In this document: positions 26,560 through 33,392 of the stretch, piece after piece | Layout: the number at the start of each line of letters is the position of its first letter | How positions within the stretch are numbered: position 1 is the first letter of the stretch | NCBI GenBank assembly: GCA_017428945.1 | Contig: JAFRPW010000011.1 | Coordinates: 1 to 33,731 of the forward strand | Length of the DNA: 33,731 nt | Origin: Bacteroidales bacterium | Lineage (GTDB): Bacteria > Bacteroidota > Bacteroidia > Bacteroidales > UBA932 | Reading direction: 5' to 3' | Notes under the pieces: generated by a model | The model's database searches: none | Told to the model about the DNA's origin: nothing | What the model saw: the letters and a program-made list of their open reading frames with translations, nothing else | Translations under genes and position numbers: made by a program

Positions 26560-26964
26560 CTACAATGTCACTGCTATTAGCTCGTTTCCTAATCTGTGCA
26601 GGGCAGTTTCTATTTTGTGTACTTGGGTCTTTCTGGGCTTGGATATGCCGTTGGCATAGTGCCATAGTTGCTTTTGATTGATGCCGGTTATTCTTTCCAG
26701 CCCGGCCTTGGTAAAGATTCCGCTATATATGGCCAGAAGGCTCTGGACATCCATCTTGAATTCAATGGAGAACTCTCCGGAGAGTTCTTCAGGTACTTCG
26801 CAGCCTACTTGATTACAGGTCTCGATAAAGACTTGTATTGCTTCCAAAAGATTAGCCTTAATCTCTGAAATAGAATTGCCGGTAGCAACAACCCCATCGA
26901 TTCCTTCAATGTAGGCCGAATAGTTGTGCTCAGTGCTCTCAATAATAGCTTTCAGTGTATTCAT
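26560..26964 (-). CDS. hicB: HicB-type antitoxin with C-terminal HTH
   Basis: 134 residues. Residues 1-75 match the partial RNase H-like HicB domain (MNTLKAIIESTEHNYSAYIE, GIDGVVATGNSISEIKANLL); residues ~85-130 form a helix-turn-helix (SGIFTKAGLERITGINQKQL, WHYANGISKPRKTQVHKIET) used to bind the operon operator. HicB neutralises HicA by capping its RNA-binding face and represses transcription with it. The start overlaps the hicA stop by 4 nt, giving the usual toxin-first order. A palindrome in the promoter (27190-27234) is the probable operator. Confidence 0.92.
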   Translation of the reverse strand: MNTLKAIIESTEHNYSAYIEGIDGVVATGNSISEIKANLLEAIQVFIETCNQVGCEVPEELSGEFSIEFKMDVQSLLAIYSGIFTKAGLERITGINQKQLWHYANGISKPRKTQVHKIETALHRLGNELIAVTL

Positions 26965-27167
26965 GATTCAGTAGTTTGTTTAAGTCCGGCTTCCCGTAAA
27001 ATGGATTGCAGAGTCCCTTGTGCCAAGTCATCATTCGCTTTACCCGGTACAATTATTGGCCTTCTTGCTCCCTCCTTGTAGTATTTGTGATGGTCTCCCC
27101 GTGTTCCTATATAATGCCAGCCATTTGACTCCAGGATACTAATTACTTCTTTTACCGTTTTCTTCAT
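26961..27167 (-). CDS. hicA: HicA-type mRNA interferase toxin
   Basis: 68 residues: MKKTVKEVISILESNGWHYI then GTRGDHHKYYKEGARRPIIV and PGKANDDLAQGTLQSILREA. This is the complete double-stranded RNA-binding-like HicA fold, with catalytic His in GDHHKY (residues 26-27). HicA is a ribosome-independent RNase that arrests growth when HicB is lost. It is preceded by a Shine-Dalgarno AGGAGGG and a consensus promoter. Toxin-first order and the 4-nt overlap with hicB are standard for hic loci. The pair appears intact. Confidence 0.93.
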   Translation of the reverse strand: MKKTVKEVISILESNGWHYIGTRGDHHKYYKEGARRPIIVPGKANDDLAQGTLQSILREAGLKQTTES

Positions 27168-27183
27168 ATCAAACCCTCCTTTG

Positions 27184-27234
27184 CAAAGATAACTATATTT
27201 CTATTATTTGCAAATAAAAATAGTAAAATAGTTA
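27184..27234 (-). promoter_or_regulatory. Promoter and palindromic operator of hicAB
   Basis: On the minus strand TTTG at 27214-27211, exactly 19 nt, then TATCTTTG at 27191-27184. Over the same stretch lies an imperfect palindrome: TAACTAT at 27190-27196 mirrored by ATAGTTA at 27228-27234, with ATTTGCAAAT at the centre (27206-27215). A HicB dimer bound there would cover both promoter boxes. Confidence 0.7.
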
Positions 27235-27266
27235 CGAATACGCCCATAAACTGGGCGTATTCGTAA
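27232..27266 (-). terminator. Terminator of the small gene at 27301-27636
   Basis: A perfect 14-bp stem (27232-27245 with 27253-27266) with a 7-nt loop lies 34 nt past the stop of that gene. The following minus-strand bases are T-rich (CTATTTTACTATTTTTA). It overlaps the outer edge of the hicAB operator. Confidence 0.65.
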
Positions 27267-27300
27267 TCGCTTCTTATCATCTTTTCCATTACTGAATTCT

Positions 27301-27636
27301 CTATTCGGTTGTATCCTCTGGTTCCAGCGGCTCGATTTCCATTATTATCTTTTGATCTATTTTTGTAATCTTTGATATATAAGCAGCATCATGATGAAAC
27401 CATTTCATTCTTTGGGCTATTTGGATACCACCGCCTATATATCCTACAAAATATCCAGTAATATAGCCTCCGATATTCTCAATTATATCCTCATCAGATA
27501 TTTTTTCCTCAAGCATTTCATTTGTTTTCTCAAGTATCAGCTTTGATAGATCTCTGATAATGTGCTTTATGTGTCCGAAATGCACTTGTTCTATATATGG
27601 CATAAGATGCTTAGCGTCATCGTATTCTTTGCTCAT
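27301..27636 (-). CDS. Small helical protein of unknown function
   Basis: 111 residues from the ATG at 27636; a frame extension to 27663 (FNPLMIKT) is possible. I do not recognise a family. The sequence is mostly helical and acidic at both ends (SKLILEKTNEMLEEKISDED, EIEPLEPEDTTE), with a central glycine-rich hydrophobic stretch (ENIGGYITGYFVGYIGGGIQ) that could pack against a membrane or form a helical hairpin. It has its own terminator and lies between hicAB and the integrase remnant. It could be an immunity protein for the nuclease at 28141-28671, but it is not adjacent, so this is a guess. Confidence 0.5.
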   Translation of the reverse strand: MSKEYDDAKHLMPYIEQVHFGHIKHIIRDLSKLILEKTNEMLEEKISDEDIIENIGGYITGYFVGYIGGGIQIAQRMKWFHHDAAYISKITKIDQKIIMEIEPLEPEDTTE

Positions 27637-27734
27637 GGTTTTTATCATTAATGGGTTAAACAATAATAGTAGTGCCGAGTTAACAAACCCGGCTTAACGG
27701 TATGAGGTAAAGAATCATGGTGGCATGACTCCCA

Positions 27735-27793
27735 GGGCTTAACGTATAACACTTTACGCACTGTGGGATTTCCACAGTGGTGTTACGTTACCC
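27735..27793. repeat. Large bulged palindrome with a perfect 8-5-8 core
   Basis: The core CACTGTGG-GATTT-CCACAGTG lies at 27759-27779. Outside it AACAC/GTGTT, TAACGT/ACGTTA and GGG/CCC continue the symmetry with small bulges to 27735 and 27793. No U-run follows. GGCTTAACG in the left arm (27736-27744) is a direct repeat of 27691-27699. The layout resembles a tyrosine-recombinase site; the right edge abuts the start of the integrase remnant. The remainder of the gap 27664-27800 shows nothing else. Confidence 0.55.
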
Positions 27794-27800
27794 TTGAAGC

Positions 27801-28064
27801 AGCTCGGGAACAGGCATTATGCCCCGGACATACCGGGACTATTTCTACCGCCTTCTAAAGAAGCTCGGGCTGCCCAAGACGCGCTTCCACGCCCTACGAC
27901 ACAGTTTTGCCACGCGATGCATTGAGAGCAAGTGCGACTACAAGACCGTCTCCGCCATCCTTGGCCACTCTTCCATCGCCACAACTCTGAACCTCTATGT
28001 CCACCCAGGTCTTTCCCAGAAGCGAAAATGCATCGAGCGTCTCGCCAAGTTCCTTCGTATTTAG
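27801..28064 (+). pseudogene. C-terminal remnant of a tyrosine recombinase
   Basis: About 87 codons remain, from just after a TGA at 27795-27797; an ATG at 27819 could give an 81-residue product. The sequence MPRTYRDYFYRLLKKLGLPK followed by RFHALRHSFATRC (HxxR), ILGHSSIATTLNLYVHP (His and nucleophile Tyr) is the end of a phage-type integrase resembling those of Firmicutes and Bacteroides elements. The core-binding domain and the first catalytic Arg/Lys are missing, so it cannot recombine alone. The break coincides with the palindrome ending at 27793. The coding residue preceding MPRTY (SGTGI) still looks homologous, placing the truncation upstream of 27801. Confidence 0.75.
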
Positions 28065-28082
28065 ATGACAATGCTTAGACTT

Positions 28083-28113
28083 TTTGTTTTTTCAATAAAA
28101 GTGGCTATATTTG
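28083..28113 (+). promoter_or_regulatory. Promoter of candidate small RNA
   Basis: TTTG at 28083-28086, exactly 19 nt, TATATTTG at 28106-28113, a complete consensus. No gene starts downstream on this strand before a terminator at 28159-28188. Confidence 0.65.
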
Positions 28114-28119
28114 CATCAG

Positions 28120-28188
28120 CTTGATAAAAGTTAGCATGCACTACGGTGCGTTGCCTCGCAGGGAGGAGTTTTCCTCCCTGTTGTTTTT
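28120..28188 (+). ncRNA. Candidate small RNA, antisense to the nuclease gene 3' end
   Basis: A consensus promoter predicts a start near 28120. The ~70-nt transcript holds GCAC-TACG-GTGC (a cUACGg tetraloop hairpin) and then a terminator: 9-bp stem CAGGGAGGA (28159-28167)/TCCTCCCTG (28172-28180) plus TTGTTTTT. No start codon is followed by a useful frame. From 28141 on it is complementary to the last ~48 nt of the nuclease gene. Alternatively it is only the far end of a longer unit. Confidence 0.5.
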
Positions 28189-28671
28189 ATATATGGGCCT
28201 TATTGTCCCTTTTTCGTATATCCAAACCTCTTCTATAGGAGCATTGAGGTTTAGGCGGGCTTGTATGAGTTTCCTTATATGTCTATCGATGGCACCTTTA
28301 TTATTGTCAATTATAATGAAGGAAGACTGACGTAAGCCATTTGATATCATACGTTGGATTTTCTTTTTATTCCAAGGACGATTATAGCTTTCATATTCAT
28401 AGAATGTGGCATCAACCAGTAAGTCGGGGCACTTTCTATAGTATCTTGTACCAATAAGATCTCCAAATACAATATGATATACGGGGTCTTTATAATGCAC
28501 GGATGTCAAGACCCGAACGTTCTTGCCGAGTTTGGCGAAACAATCGGCAATAACGATCAGGTCTTTATAATCAGGTTTTAATTTGTCCAATCCTTTCATC
28601 AAAAGCACCTGCCCTCCATTCTCGTACTTCCTGTACAAAGCGAATAAATCTTCATTCACACACATTCCCAT
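28141..28671 (-). CDS. Stand-alone CdiA-CT-like (tRNase/PD-(D/E)xK-type) nuclease domain protein
   Basis: 176 residues from the ATG at 28671 (an alternative at 28665). After an N-terminal helix (NEDLFALYRKYENGGQVLLM) the pattern ADCFAKLGKNVRVLTS, then CPDLLVDATFYEYESYNRPW, then a Lys-rich helix NKKKIQRMISNGLRQ, SSFIIIDNNKG and HIRKLIQARLNLNAPIEEVW resembles the C-terminal tRNase domains of contact-dependent inhibition toxins and related phage-borne proteins, with Asp, Glu and Lys in the order of a PD-(D/E)xK-type site. No export domain is attached and no immunity gene is adjacent. A structured RNA with promoter and terminator lies just upstream. Identification is moderate. Confidence 0.62.
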   Translation of the reverse strand: MGMCVNEDLFALYRKYENGGQVLLMKGLDKLKPDYKDLIVIADCFAKLGKNVRVLTSVHYKDPVYHIVFGDLIGTRYYRKCPDLLVDATFYEYESYNRPWNKKKIQRMISNGLRQSSFIIIDNNKGAIDRHIRKLIQARLNLNAPIEEVWIYEKGTIRPIYKNNREENSSLRGNAP

Positions 28672-28695
28672 CGAAGCCAATAATTATTAACTATG

Positions 28696-28880
28696 AATAA
28701 AAACGATTTCGGGATTTCCGAAAGCGAGTTACGCGCCCATAGTGCAGACACCAACGGGGTAGTTGCGTCAGGGAAGACGCCTCCTTGCAATAAGATGGAT
28801 GCATTCTGCAAGGCTTACTTGTTTAGACTGGGCCCCCGTAACAAAGGGTTTACGAATCACCGGCCCCGTCGCACGTCTGC
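28696..28880 (-). ncRNA. Structured RNA of ~185 nt (6S-like architecture or leader of the nuclease gene)
   Basis: Minus-strand read: outer stem GCAGAC (28880-28875)/GTCTGC (28749-28744), then ACGGGG (28869-28864)/CCCCGT (28759-28754), internal hairpin CGTAA/TTACG (28854-28850/28841-28837), a long hairpin CCTTGCA/TGCAAGG (28813-28807/28789-28783) and GCGTC/GACGC (28780-28776/28769-28765). A terminator ends it: 6-bp stem TTTCGG/CCGAAA (28723-28707) then TTTTT. The -7 box at 28892-28885 places the start at 28878-28880. A closing stem, an open middle and a terminal hairpin at this length recall 6S RNA, but no 6S sequence signature was recognised. Confidence 0.55.
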
Positions 28881-28884
28881 TATG

Positions 28885-28892
28885 CAAATATA
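28885..28892 (-). promoter_or_regulatory. -7 element of the structured RNA
   Basis: TATATTTG on the minus strand, full TAnnTTTG. The expected start about 6 nt downstream coincides with the first base of the closing stem at 28880. The -33 position has no clear TTTG. Confidence 0.5.
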
Positions 28893-28934
28893 GCAAGATT
28901 CTTCATCATATTTCCGCTTGTCAATGAAATTTTA

Positions 28935-28942
28935 TATCTTTG
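28935..28942 (+). promoter_or_regulatory. -7 element upstream of the methyltransferase leader
   Basis: TATCTTTG, full TAnnTTTG, reading toward the methyltransferase gene at 29207. The predicted leader would be about 255 nt long and contains the hairpin switch at 29059-29143. The -33 is weak (CTTG at 28917-28920). Confidence 0.4.
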
Positions 28943-29058
28943 CCTTTGCATTGTTCAGATAGAACATTGTAGACATATTTTCAGATAGCGTTTGCTATTT
29001 ATTCGGAACACTCAAAACTTGGCAGTTTTATAAATCAACTCCGGATAAGTCAGTGAAC

Positions 29059-29143
29059 GTCCGCGCTTTGCGTGGATGTGACTTTTCCGTTGATAGGTAC
29101 GCCAAGACCTTGAGTGTGGATTATGAACATCCACGCTTTTTTT
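29059..29143 (+). promoter_or_regulatory. Attenuator-like leader with mutually exclusive hairpins
   Basis: Four segments: 1 GTCCGCGC (29059-29066), 2 GCGTGGATGT (29070-29079), 3 GTGTGGAT (29114-29121), 4 ACATCCACGC (29127-29136), followed by seven T (29137-29143). 1 pairs with 2; 3 pairs with 4 to make an intrinsic terminator; 2 pairs perfectly with 4 over 10 bp, which would block the terminator. CCAAGAC/GTCTTGG (29102-29108/29145-29151) flanks segments 3-4. It lies 64 nt before the methyltransferase ATG. No leader peptide is visible. Confidence 0.55.
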
Positions 29144-29206
29144 GTGTCTTGGTGGACCTCCGCGTAAGTCGCTTTCGCTGTTGAAAAACAAACGAGAGCG
29201 CAGCTT

Positions 29207-30289
29207 ATGGCCAACAACAGCAATCTTGGCGCCGCTAAGGCTGCCAAGAATGATGAGTTCTATACTCAGTACGCCGACATCCAGAAGGAGATCAATGCCT
29301 ATCTGGAGTACAATCCTGACACTTTCCGTGACAAGACGGTCCTTCTTCCGTGCGATGATCCGGAGTGGAGTAACTTCACCCGTTTCTTTGCCCAGAACTT
29401 TGAGCGGCTGGGTCTTAAGCGGCTCATAAGCACTTCCTACGCCGTTGAGAGCAAGAAGTACAAGGACTATGAGCCCACGCTCTTCGAGACCGAGAGTCCG
29501 CTGTTTGATGCCGATAAAACACGCATCAAGGGCAAGATCTTCGAACTCACAGCCGACACTAACGGCAGCGGTCGCATCGACATTGACGATCTGGAATGGC
29601 ACTACCTAGACGGCGACGGCGACTTCCGCAGCCCCGAAGTCTGCGCGCTCAGGGATCAGGCCGATGTTATTGTGACGAATCCGCCGTTTTCGCTATTTAG
29701 GGAGTTTCTAGCATGGTGTACTGGAGGGAATAAGCAGTTTCTCATCATTGGAAATATGAATGCGCTGACATATAGAGAGGTATTTCCTTTGGTTAAAGCA
29801 AATCGTCTTTGGTATGGGCCTTCAATTAGTAGTGGAGACAGAGAGTTTATGGTGCCTGATTCTTATCCTATTGAGGCATCTGGATGGCGTATAGACGATA
29901 AAGGGAAGAAGTATATAAGGGTTAAGGGAGTGCGTTGGTTTACTAATCTCGAGCATGGCCGCCGCCATCAGCATTTGCAATTGATGTCTATGAAAGACAA
30001 TCTGAGATTCAGTAAGCATAAGGACCTATTGAAGGATGGATACATGAAGTTTGATAATTATGATTGTATCAATGTCCCTTATACTGATTCAATTCCATCT
30101 GACTATACCGGATTTATGGGAGTCCCAATCAGTTTCATGGACAAGTACTGCCCAGAGCAATTTGAAATAGTTGGTCTTATTGCTGGTAATATCAAGGGGC
30201 TGTCTGGGTTGGTTAGTTCTACGGGTAAAGATGGCCCTTATATCAATGGGGTATTGACATACGGAAGAATAATAATCAAGAGTATATGA
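29207..30289 (+). CDS. EcoRI-type adenine-specific DNA methyltransferase
   Basis: 360 residues. The N-terminal [20 protein letters not shown] is the hallmark of the M.EcoRI-like family; the catalytic motif IV is [13 protein letters not shown] (NPPF at 158-161). [20 protein letters not shown] (~117-136) is the acidic insert of this family, and [14 protein letters not shown] follows. It transfers a methyl group from S-adenosylmethionine to the N6 of adenine in its site. It ends with a 4-nt overlap into the DUF262-HNH gene, so the two are a unit, probably modification and restriction. The first ~450 bp are clearly GC-richer than the rest. A hairpin leader precedes the gene. Confidence 0.9.
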
Positions 30290-33325: not shown

Positions 33326-33392
33326 GGCAGCGGCAAAGGGCGTCCGGCGGCGTCGTCCTTTTCCTAGCCGCCGGACGCCCTTTGCCGCTGCC
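33326..33392. repeat. Perfect 26-bp GC-rich inverted repeat
   Basis: The left arm 33326-33351 and right arm 33367-33392 are exact reverse complements; the loop is 15 nt (33352-33366). No T-run follows on either side, so it is not an ordinary intrinsic terminator. It lies in an AT-rich gap upstream of hipBA. Its GC content differs sharply from the surroundings. Confidence 0.9.

Follow-up and report, generated by a model that had tools for sequence, protein, structure and literature searches.

On the minus strand of the analysed window (the whole stretch of 33,731 nucleotides) we identified a probable structured 5′ leader RNA of about 209 nt that appears to have its own promoter and to be transcribed into the gene of a CdiA_C-like protein, and for which cis-regulation is the likeliest role, a reading in which we place roughly even confidence. 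That the leader belongs to a sequence family is certain, and its fold is probable. At the level of sequence comparison, its conserved blocks, its position and the presence of different genes behind the same leader are established.

Location and extent of the leader

The features of the locus are as follows (all on the minus strand):

28885..28892, −7 box TATATTTG, which we take to be that of a Bacteroidota-type promoter
28672..28880, predicted 5′ leader RNA, with its start placed at 28880 and its 3′ limit at the base preceding the ATG at 28671
28875..28880, 5′ arm of the closing stem P1, GCAGAC
28823..28851, near-invariant block AAACCCUUUGUUACGGGGGCCCRGUCUAA
28783..28813, hairpin P3 (CCUUGCAG/UUGCAAGG), a helix placed by hand
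28765..28780, hairpin P4 (GCGUC/GACGC)
28744..28749, 3′ arm of P1, GUCUGC
28728..28733, CGUAAC element, complementary to GUUACG in the near-invariant block (possible pseudoknot)
28707..28723, hairpin P5 with the loop AAAUC, terminator-like, followed by a U-run at 28699-28703
28141..28680, gene of the CdiA_C-like protein, 179 aa from the TTG

The first-pass annotation had proposed a −7 box that sets the 5′ end at the first base of the closing stem, and TATATTTG was indeed found at 28885-28892, with four bases between it and GCAGAC, the outer arm of the stem. It had also called the RNA unannotated and suggested a covariance search; a search of the annotated segment against Rfam 15 gave nothing at E ≤ 10. 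The nuclease gene, said to begin 25 nt past the terminator, does lie directly downstream, but the spacing after the U-run is 18 nt if translation starts at the TTG (28680) or 27 nt if it starts at the ATG (28671), which is the likelier start codon. A 66-aa ORF on the opposite strand is unlikely to be protein-coding, because the equivalent frame contains one, one and three stops in the relatives from genomes G170, G711 and G075 (described below), respectively; in G711 the only stop falls at codon three of the frame, and a different frame is open.

Fold of the window copy

In the predicted fold of the window copy, the conserved loop region, P3 and P4 lie inside the closing stem, and the CGUAAC element and P5 lie 3′ of it. 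The closing duplex, formed by GCAGACG..CGACGGGG with CCCCGUUG.UGUCUGC, comprises 15 pairs and in isolation was matched by 12 of 500 shuffled sequences. The minimum free energy of the closed domain (28744-28880) corresponded to a z-score of −2.2, with 6 of 200 shuffles equal or better. For the whole 186 nt the z-score was only −1.5 (17 of 200 shuffles) and −1.3 in a repeat run (21 of 200), and therefore energy alone is no proof of structure; the case for a structured RNA is carried by the relatives.

The first-pass annotation had announced several hairpins; P3, P4 and P5 are drawn here, and the predicted hairpin UUCGUAA/UUACGGG was not supported, being mostly broken in G170. The intrinsic terminator named in that annotation came out weak: its stem has six pairs, three of them G-C, and is followed by TCGTTTTTAT, and the relatives have a hairpin at this place without the adjoining U-run. 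Within 28050-29250, three terminator-like sites were observed, compared with 1.3 ± 1.2 in shuffled sequences.

Relatives of the leader and conservation of its stems

A model built from the window copy alone and run over 400 same-genus genomes gave, besides the window copy, a single match, located in G170 (37.1 bits; E = 3.1e-4 per genome, with about 0.1 such matches expected over the whole search). At this place we found a promoter box, the same 29-nt block, the closing stem, CGUAAC, a P3 of different sequence, P4 with the same stem and another loop, and a hairpin whose loop is likewise AAAUC. When 390 same-genus genomes were searched with a pattern of the block, allowing at most three mismatches, the 26-nt block core was present in four of them, namely the window's own, G170, G711 and G075; the mismatches numbered 0, 0, 0 and 3. 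Pairwise blastn comparison with the window copy gave E-values of 2.7e-13 for G170, 1.4e-11 for G711 and 3.1e-7 for G075. The leader family thus has four full copies, three of them relatives of the window copy among about 400 same-genus genomes. A TAnnTTTG box occupies the equivalent position in G170 and G711, so that a conserved RNA stands between promoter and gene in these two and in the window copy; the G075 copy has neither a clean box nor a gene. Phages, plasmids and viral contigs showed no likeness to the leader at the sensitivity used; three plasmid matches covered 8% of it at E = 1. Four blastn matches of the annotated segment in relatives were, by eye, promoter or gene sequence and were discarded as homologues.

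As stem arms are misplaced in the MAFFT alignment, the helices were positioned manually. P3 can be drawn in all four copies, with four of its seven positions changed on both sides and with five pairs in G711. P1 is identical in G170, is wholly replaced in G711 and still pairs there (GAUAGC/GCUGUC), and is unclear in G075. Although the sequence of P5 varies, its arms still pair in the window, in G170 and G075 and in a truncated copy described below; in G711 the helix is interrupted. A check for compensatory changes had been suggested with the initial description of the locus; arms that differ in sequence and still pair were found in P3, in P5, and in P1 of G711 as compared with the window copy and G170. 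Tested singly, P3 was matched by 21 of 500 shuffles in the window copy, 37 in G075, 214 in G170 and 437 in G711, and the P1 duplex of G711 by 120 of 500. RNAalifold applied to the MAFFT alignment recovered P5 and the possible pseudoknot, and neither P1 nor P3. The stems can be regarded as supported, on few sequences.

The complementarity between GUUACG of the invariant loop and CGUAAC is present in all four copies, and 15-46% of shuffled blocks match as well, so that the pseudoknot is possible but not significant by itself. The U-run adjoining P5 in the window copy is absent from the three relatives, whose tails are U-rich and contain UAUUGUU; in G711, six U are located about ten bases further on from the last hairpin.

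Genes behind the leader

Three of the four full copies stand directly before genes: the window copy precedes the gene of the CdiA_C-like protein, and those of G170 and G711 precede PDDEXK_2 genes. In G075, the frame read contains no ORF of more than 25 codons, and a convergent promoter box follows. On contig C126 of this genome, a leader of a second family (see below) precedes a KilA-N gene; the leader of the window family comes after it in the same orientation.

The G711 leader, used as a query against the window's genome at E 0.01, matched two places, the leader described here and a shorter copy:

27765..27816, minus strand, a 5′-truncated further member of this leader family (identical to the G711 leader at 87% of positions; genome-wide E = 6.8e-10)

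The truncated copy lies ahead of a small gene (27301-27663) and adjoins a fragment of an integrase, the C-terminal part of a tyrosine recombinase, at 27819-28064. Further along the same region, at 26560-27167 (minus strand), a HicA toxin gene has as its neighbour a gene whose match to UPF0150 is weak and does not reach the cut-off, perhaps a HicB-type partner.

The CdiA_C-like protein matched PF18451 below the cut-off (E = 0.0053) and phrog_19194 with E = 3.7e-46, and it has the conserved residues R-K-C-P-D..E-Y-E. Its AlphaFold2 model has a pLDDT of 87, but the PDB gave nothing below E 0.05, so the nuclease fold is not confirmed. The nuclease label is thus putative, resting on the sub-threshold CdiA_C match and the conserved residues. 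None of the ToxN-type families of Pfam matched the gene.

A second leader family in the genus

A search with the protein found it in 17 of 250 genomes of the genus, and the DNA upstream of 16 of the 19 matches was read, that of the window included. In seven of the 15 other genus loci, the CdiA_C-like gene is preceded at the same position by a different conserved leader; two of the remaining eight (L047 and L049) lie inside long fused frames. At L048, where the nuclease-like gene is broken into two frames, a third leader was seen upstream of it; this leader is larger and, by eye, has a long closing stem. At L040, repeats of about 25 nt (CTGCTGACCGCGGC...ATGTAAACC) lie on both sides of the gene, an arrangement that looks cassette-like by eye.

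A model of the second family (R2) gave matches in 57 of 400 genomes of the genus, and some contigs carry several copies in tandem. The consensus is GGUCG..CGGCC..GGAG..CUCCCUUCACAA (loci L035, L037, L042-L046, L054-L093 and L100). A TAnnTTTG box is located 9-20 nt upstream in 43 of 46 distinct copies and in none of 46 shuffled ones. For the fourteen pairs of the predicted fold, pairing is kept in 96.4% of cells. Two-sided changes were seen at five pairs, all of them in one hairpin, and the other two helices hardly vary; five such pairs were reached by 14 of 500 shuffles, whereas the 21 two-sided cells, compared with 6.8 expected, were reached by none of 500. These shuffles are generous, because the copies are related. 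The family has no match in Rfam, and its core pattern was found neither in viral contigs nor in 393 genomes sampled over the order, almost all of which belong to other genera.

The first ORFs behind second-family leaders (30 loci and 10 stretches) numbered 51, with 44 distinct sequences, a few being one gene at two lengths, and fell into seven clusters of 16, 10, 10, 4, 2, 1 and 1. Cluster representatives matched ORF6N/RhuM, RelB, Abi_2, Gp49 and DUF3800 and, below the cut-off, LPD3 and CdiA_C. In both Abi_2 cases, a promoter box in reverse orientation sits between leader and gene. L069 and L073 contain leaders without a following ORF, and in L045 and L073 the first leader copy is not followed by a gene. 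By eye, the copies in L087 and L088 resemble each other from a point ahead of the promoter as far as the 3′ end of the leader and no further.

We considered the second family as a direct homologue of the leader in the window and rejected this, as the R2 model gave no match there even at E 10 and the local alignment had a p of 0.35. Since, in addition, an end-free alignment reached p 0.02 only post hoc, the two are treated as separate families.

A predicted convergent small RNA opposite the 3′ end of the gene

Outside the leader, another candidate RNA faces the gene:

28118..28190, plus strand, predicted convergent small-RNA gene, with its promoter box at 28106-28113; it overlaps the nuclease-like gene at the 3′ end of the latter

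In the window it has a C(UACG)G hairpin, a terminator overlapping the gene end and a promoter box of its own. At all 19 nuclease loci examined, a TAnnTTTG box faces the gene no more than 140 nt from where the protein match ends. Of these loci, 16 belong to the genus (that of the window included), L006 comes from a Prevotellaceae MAG, and L032 and L033 come from viral contigs; 180-nt segments taken at random from these loci contained such a box in 12.5% of cases. At L039, the convergent box is 79 nt out. The predicted RNA usually has the C(UACG)G hairpin, of which variants occur, and a terminator near the end of the gene. As an RNA partner of this protein family, it may be more general than the leader.

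Two other structured features of the window were noted. At 28999-29177 (plus strand), a second strongly structured leader (minimum free energy z-score −4.8, 0 of 200 shuffles) lies ahead of an EcoRI-type methylase gene; the sequence CGCGTAAsTCGCTTTCG near its end is common to the end of the leader of the CdiA_C-like gene (inverted repeat I7). At 33326-33392 there is a perfect 26-nt inverted repeat with a 15-nt spacer.

Comparison with 6S RNA

The first-pass annotation had compared the layout with that of 6S RNA. A divergent or second 6S RNA here is hardly credible: length and closing stem are similar, but no 6S family scores at the leader, the genome's own 6S-type RNA lies on another contig, and the relatives of the leader stand before genes. 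The Rfam families RF00013 and RF01693 had no match anywhere in the genome, and RF01685 had none at E ≤ 1. Bacteroidales-1 RNA (RF01693), which carries the Rfam label '6S-Bacteroidales RNA suggested', is present in the genus, with matches scoring below the cut-off in 16 of 36 same-genus genomes; matches of RF01685 (6S-Flavo) overlap some of these places. A genus-specific 6S-type model (R1), built from 13 of the 16 with G003, G014 and G032 left out, located the copy of this genome at C35:66892-67049 with 111 bits, and over 27000-30000 of the window it gave nothing above 4.7 bits.

Discussion

The leader family would be defined by three features: a closing stem that begins at the 5′ end, a loop region with hardly any variation, and a final hairpin just upstream of the start codon. 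We favour a cis-acting leader because of its position at the presumed start of the message, its conserved blocks and the exchange of the genes behind it. Of the initial suggestion of a riboregulatory leader for a toxic gene, the leader itself is supported, by the position, by the relatives before nuclease-family genes and by the second leader family before relatives of the gene; regulation and toxicity are presumed. The hairpin and U-rich tail before the start codon suggest attenuation or translational control. The leader would fold during its synthesis, and the last hairpin with the U-rich tail would lower read-through or translation; some signal might then refold the leader and lift this block. 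The pairing of GUUACG of the invariant loop with CGUAAC beside the last hairpin could be the switch. As the terminator is weak and the U-run is not kept in place, attenuation may not occur.

The order of promoter, structured RNA, terminator-like hairpin and nuclease-like gene is also that of RCd22-AbiF and ToxIN. By analogy, and as the main alternative, the leader could be an RNA antitoxin that is released at P5 and binds the nuclease-like protein, with read-through yielding the toxin, and the existence of gene-less leaders would agree with this. We nevertheless consider it rather unlikely. One RNA family precedes both CdiA_C-like and PDDEXK_2 genes and the second precedes seven clusters, whereas type III antitoxins are reported to be conserved with their toxin groups; such swapping makes an antitoxin less likely. 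In addition, the leader lacks tandem repeats (none at score 30 in 28100-29250), and the toxicity of the gene is only presumed. In PMC12373285, abiF RNA (RF03085) is described upstream of a toxic Abi_2 gene, mainly made in a short gene-less form; RCd22-AbiF of C. difficile has its own promoter and a terminator before the gene, with riboswitch-like premature termination proposed, and its RNA works both in cis and by binding the toxin. Further sources are PMC5086642, PMC7366714, PMC2864571 and PMC8040213.

Improbable, in our estimate, is that promoter and leader are mainly the shared end of a recombining cassette, conserved through DNA exchange. The tandem second-family leaders with different genes on one contig, the likeness that ends at the 3′ end of the leader in L087 and L088 and the integrase fragment at 27819-28064 would fit such a cassette, but the changed pairs of the second family and the near-fixed distance of its promoter box point to an RNA, and neither a recombination site nor a dedicated recombinase was identified within the window. 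The leaders without genes (G075 and the first copy in L045 and L073) fit an independent RNA or a decayed cassette just as well as a leader. It is quite improbable that the RNA stops at the terminator and acts in trans as an independent small RNA, with a separate promoter for the nuclease-like gene: the window copy does have a U-run after P5, but this run is not kept in place in the relatives, and three of the four full copies directly precede genes.

The presence of the same leader before unrelated genes in a large genus suggests shared control of mobile defence genes. A bolder, and tentative, extension of the cis-acting leader is that at least two distinct leader RNAs of one genus, both highly conserved, serve as interchangeable riboregulatory 'sockets', behind which genes of toxin, antitoxin, abortive-infection and nuclease type are swapped. 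If so, one signal read by an RNA would control a changing defence arsenal. With two RNA families that have no match in Rfam 15, their signal can now be sought. To our knowledge, the RNA leaders of defence genes, such as ToxI and abiF RNA, each serve one protein family. A literature search, of a kind that would miss mentions deep in papers or supplements, named no earlier report of such leaders or cassettes.

Among known systems, Bacteroidales-1/6S RNA (RF01693) resembles the leader in length but differs in that the copy of the genome lies elsewhere and the family has no score here. A group of DUF3800-associated RNAs was reportedly described by Weinberg in 2017. The DUF3800-I RNAs (RF02969) are named for nearby DUF3800 genes, and one second-family leader precedes a DUF3800 gene; however, the match in question is sub-threshold (19.5 versus 44.2 bits) and is to the convergent RNA instead of the leader. 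The type III toxin-antitoxin systems (ToxIN, CptIN and TenpIN) share the order of RNA, terminator-like hairpin and nuclease-type gene, but the leader has no tandem repeats and the gene behind it has no ToxN-type Pfam match. The abiF RNA (RF03085) is likewise a structured RNA made from its own promoter before a toxin or defence gene, with a terminator between them; there is no RF03085 match here and no Abi_2 gene behind the window leader, and, unlike abiF RNA, the RNA family described here precedes different proteins.
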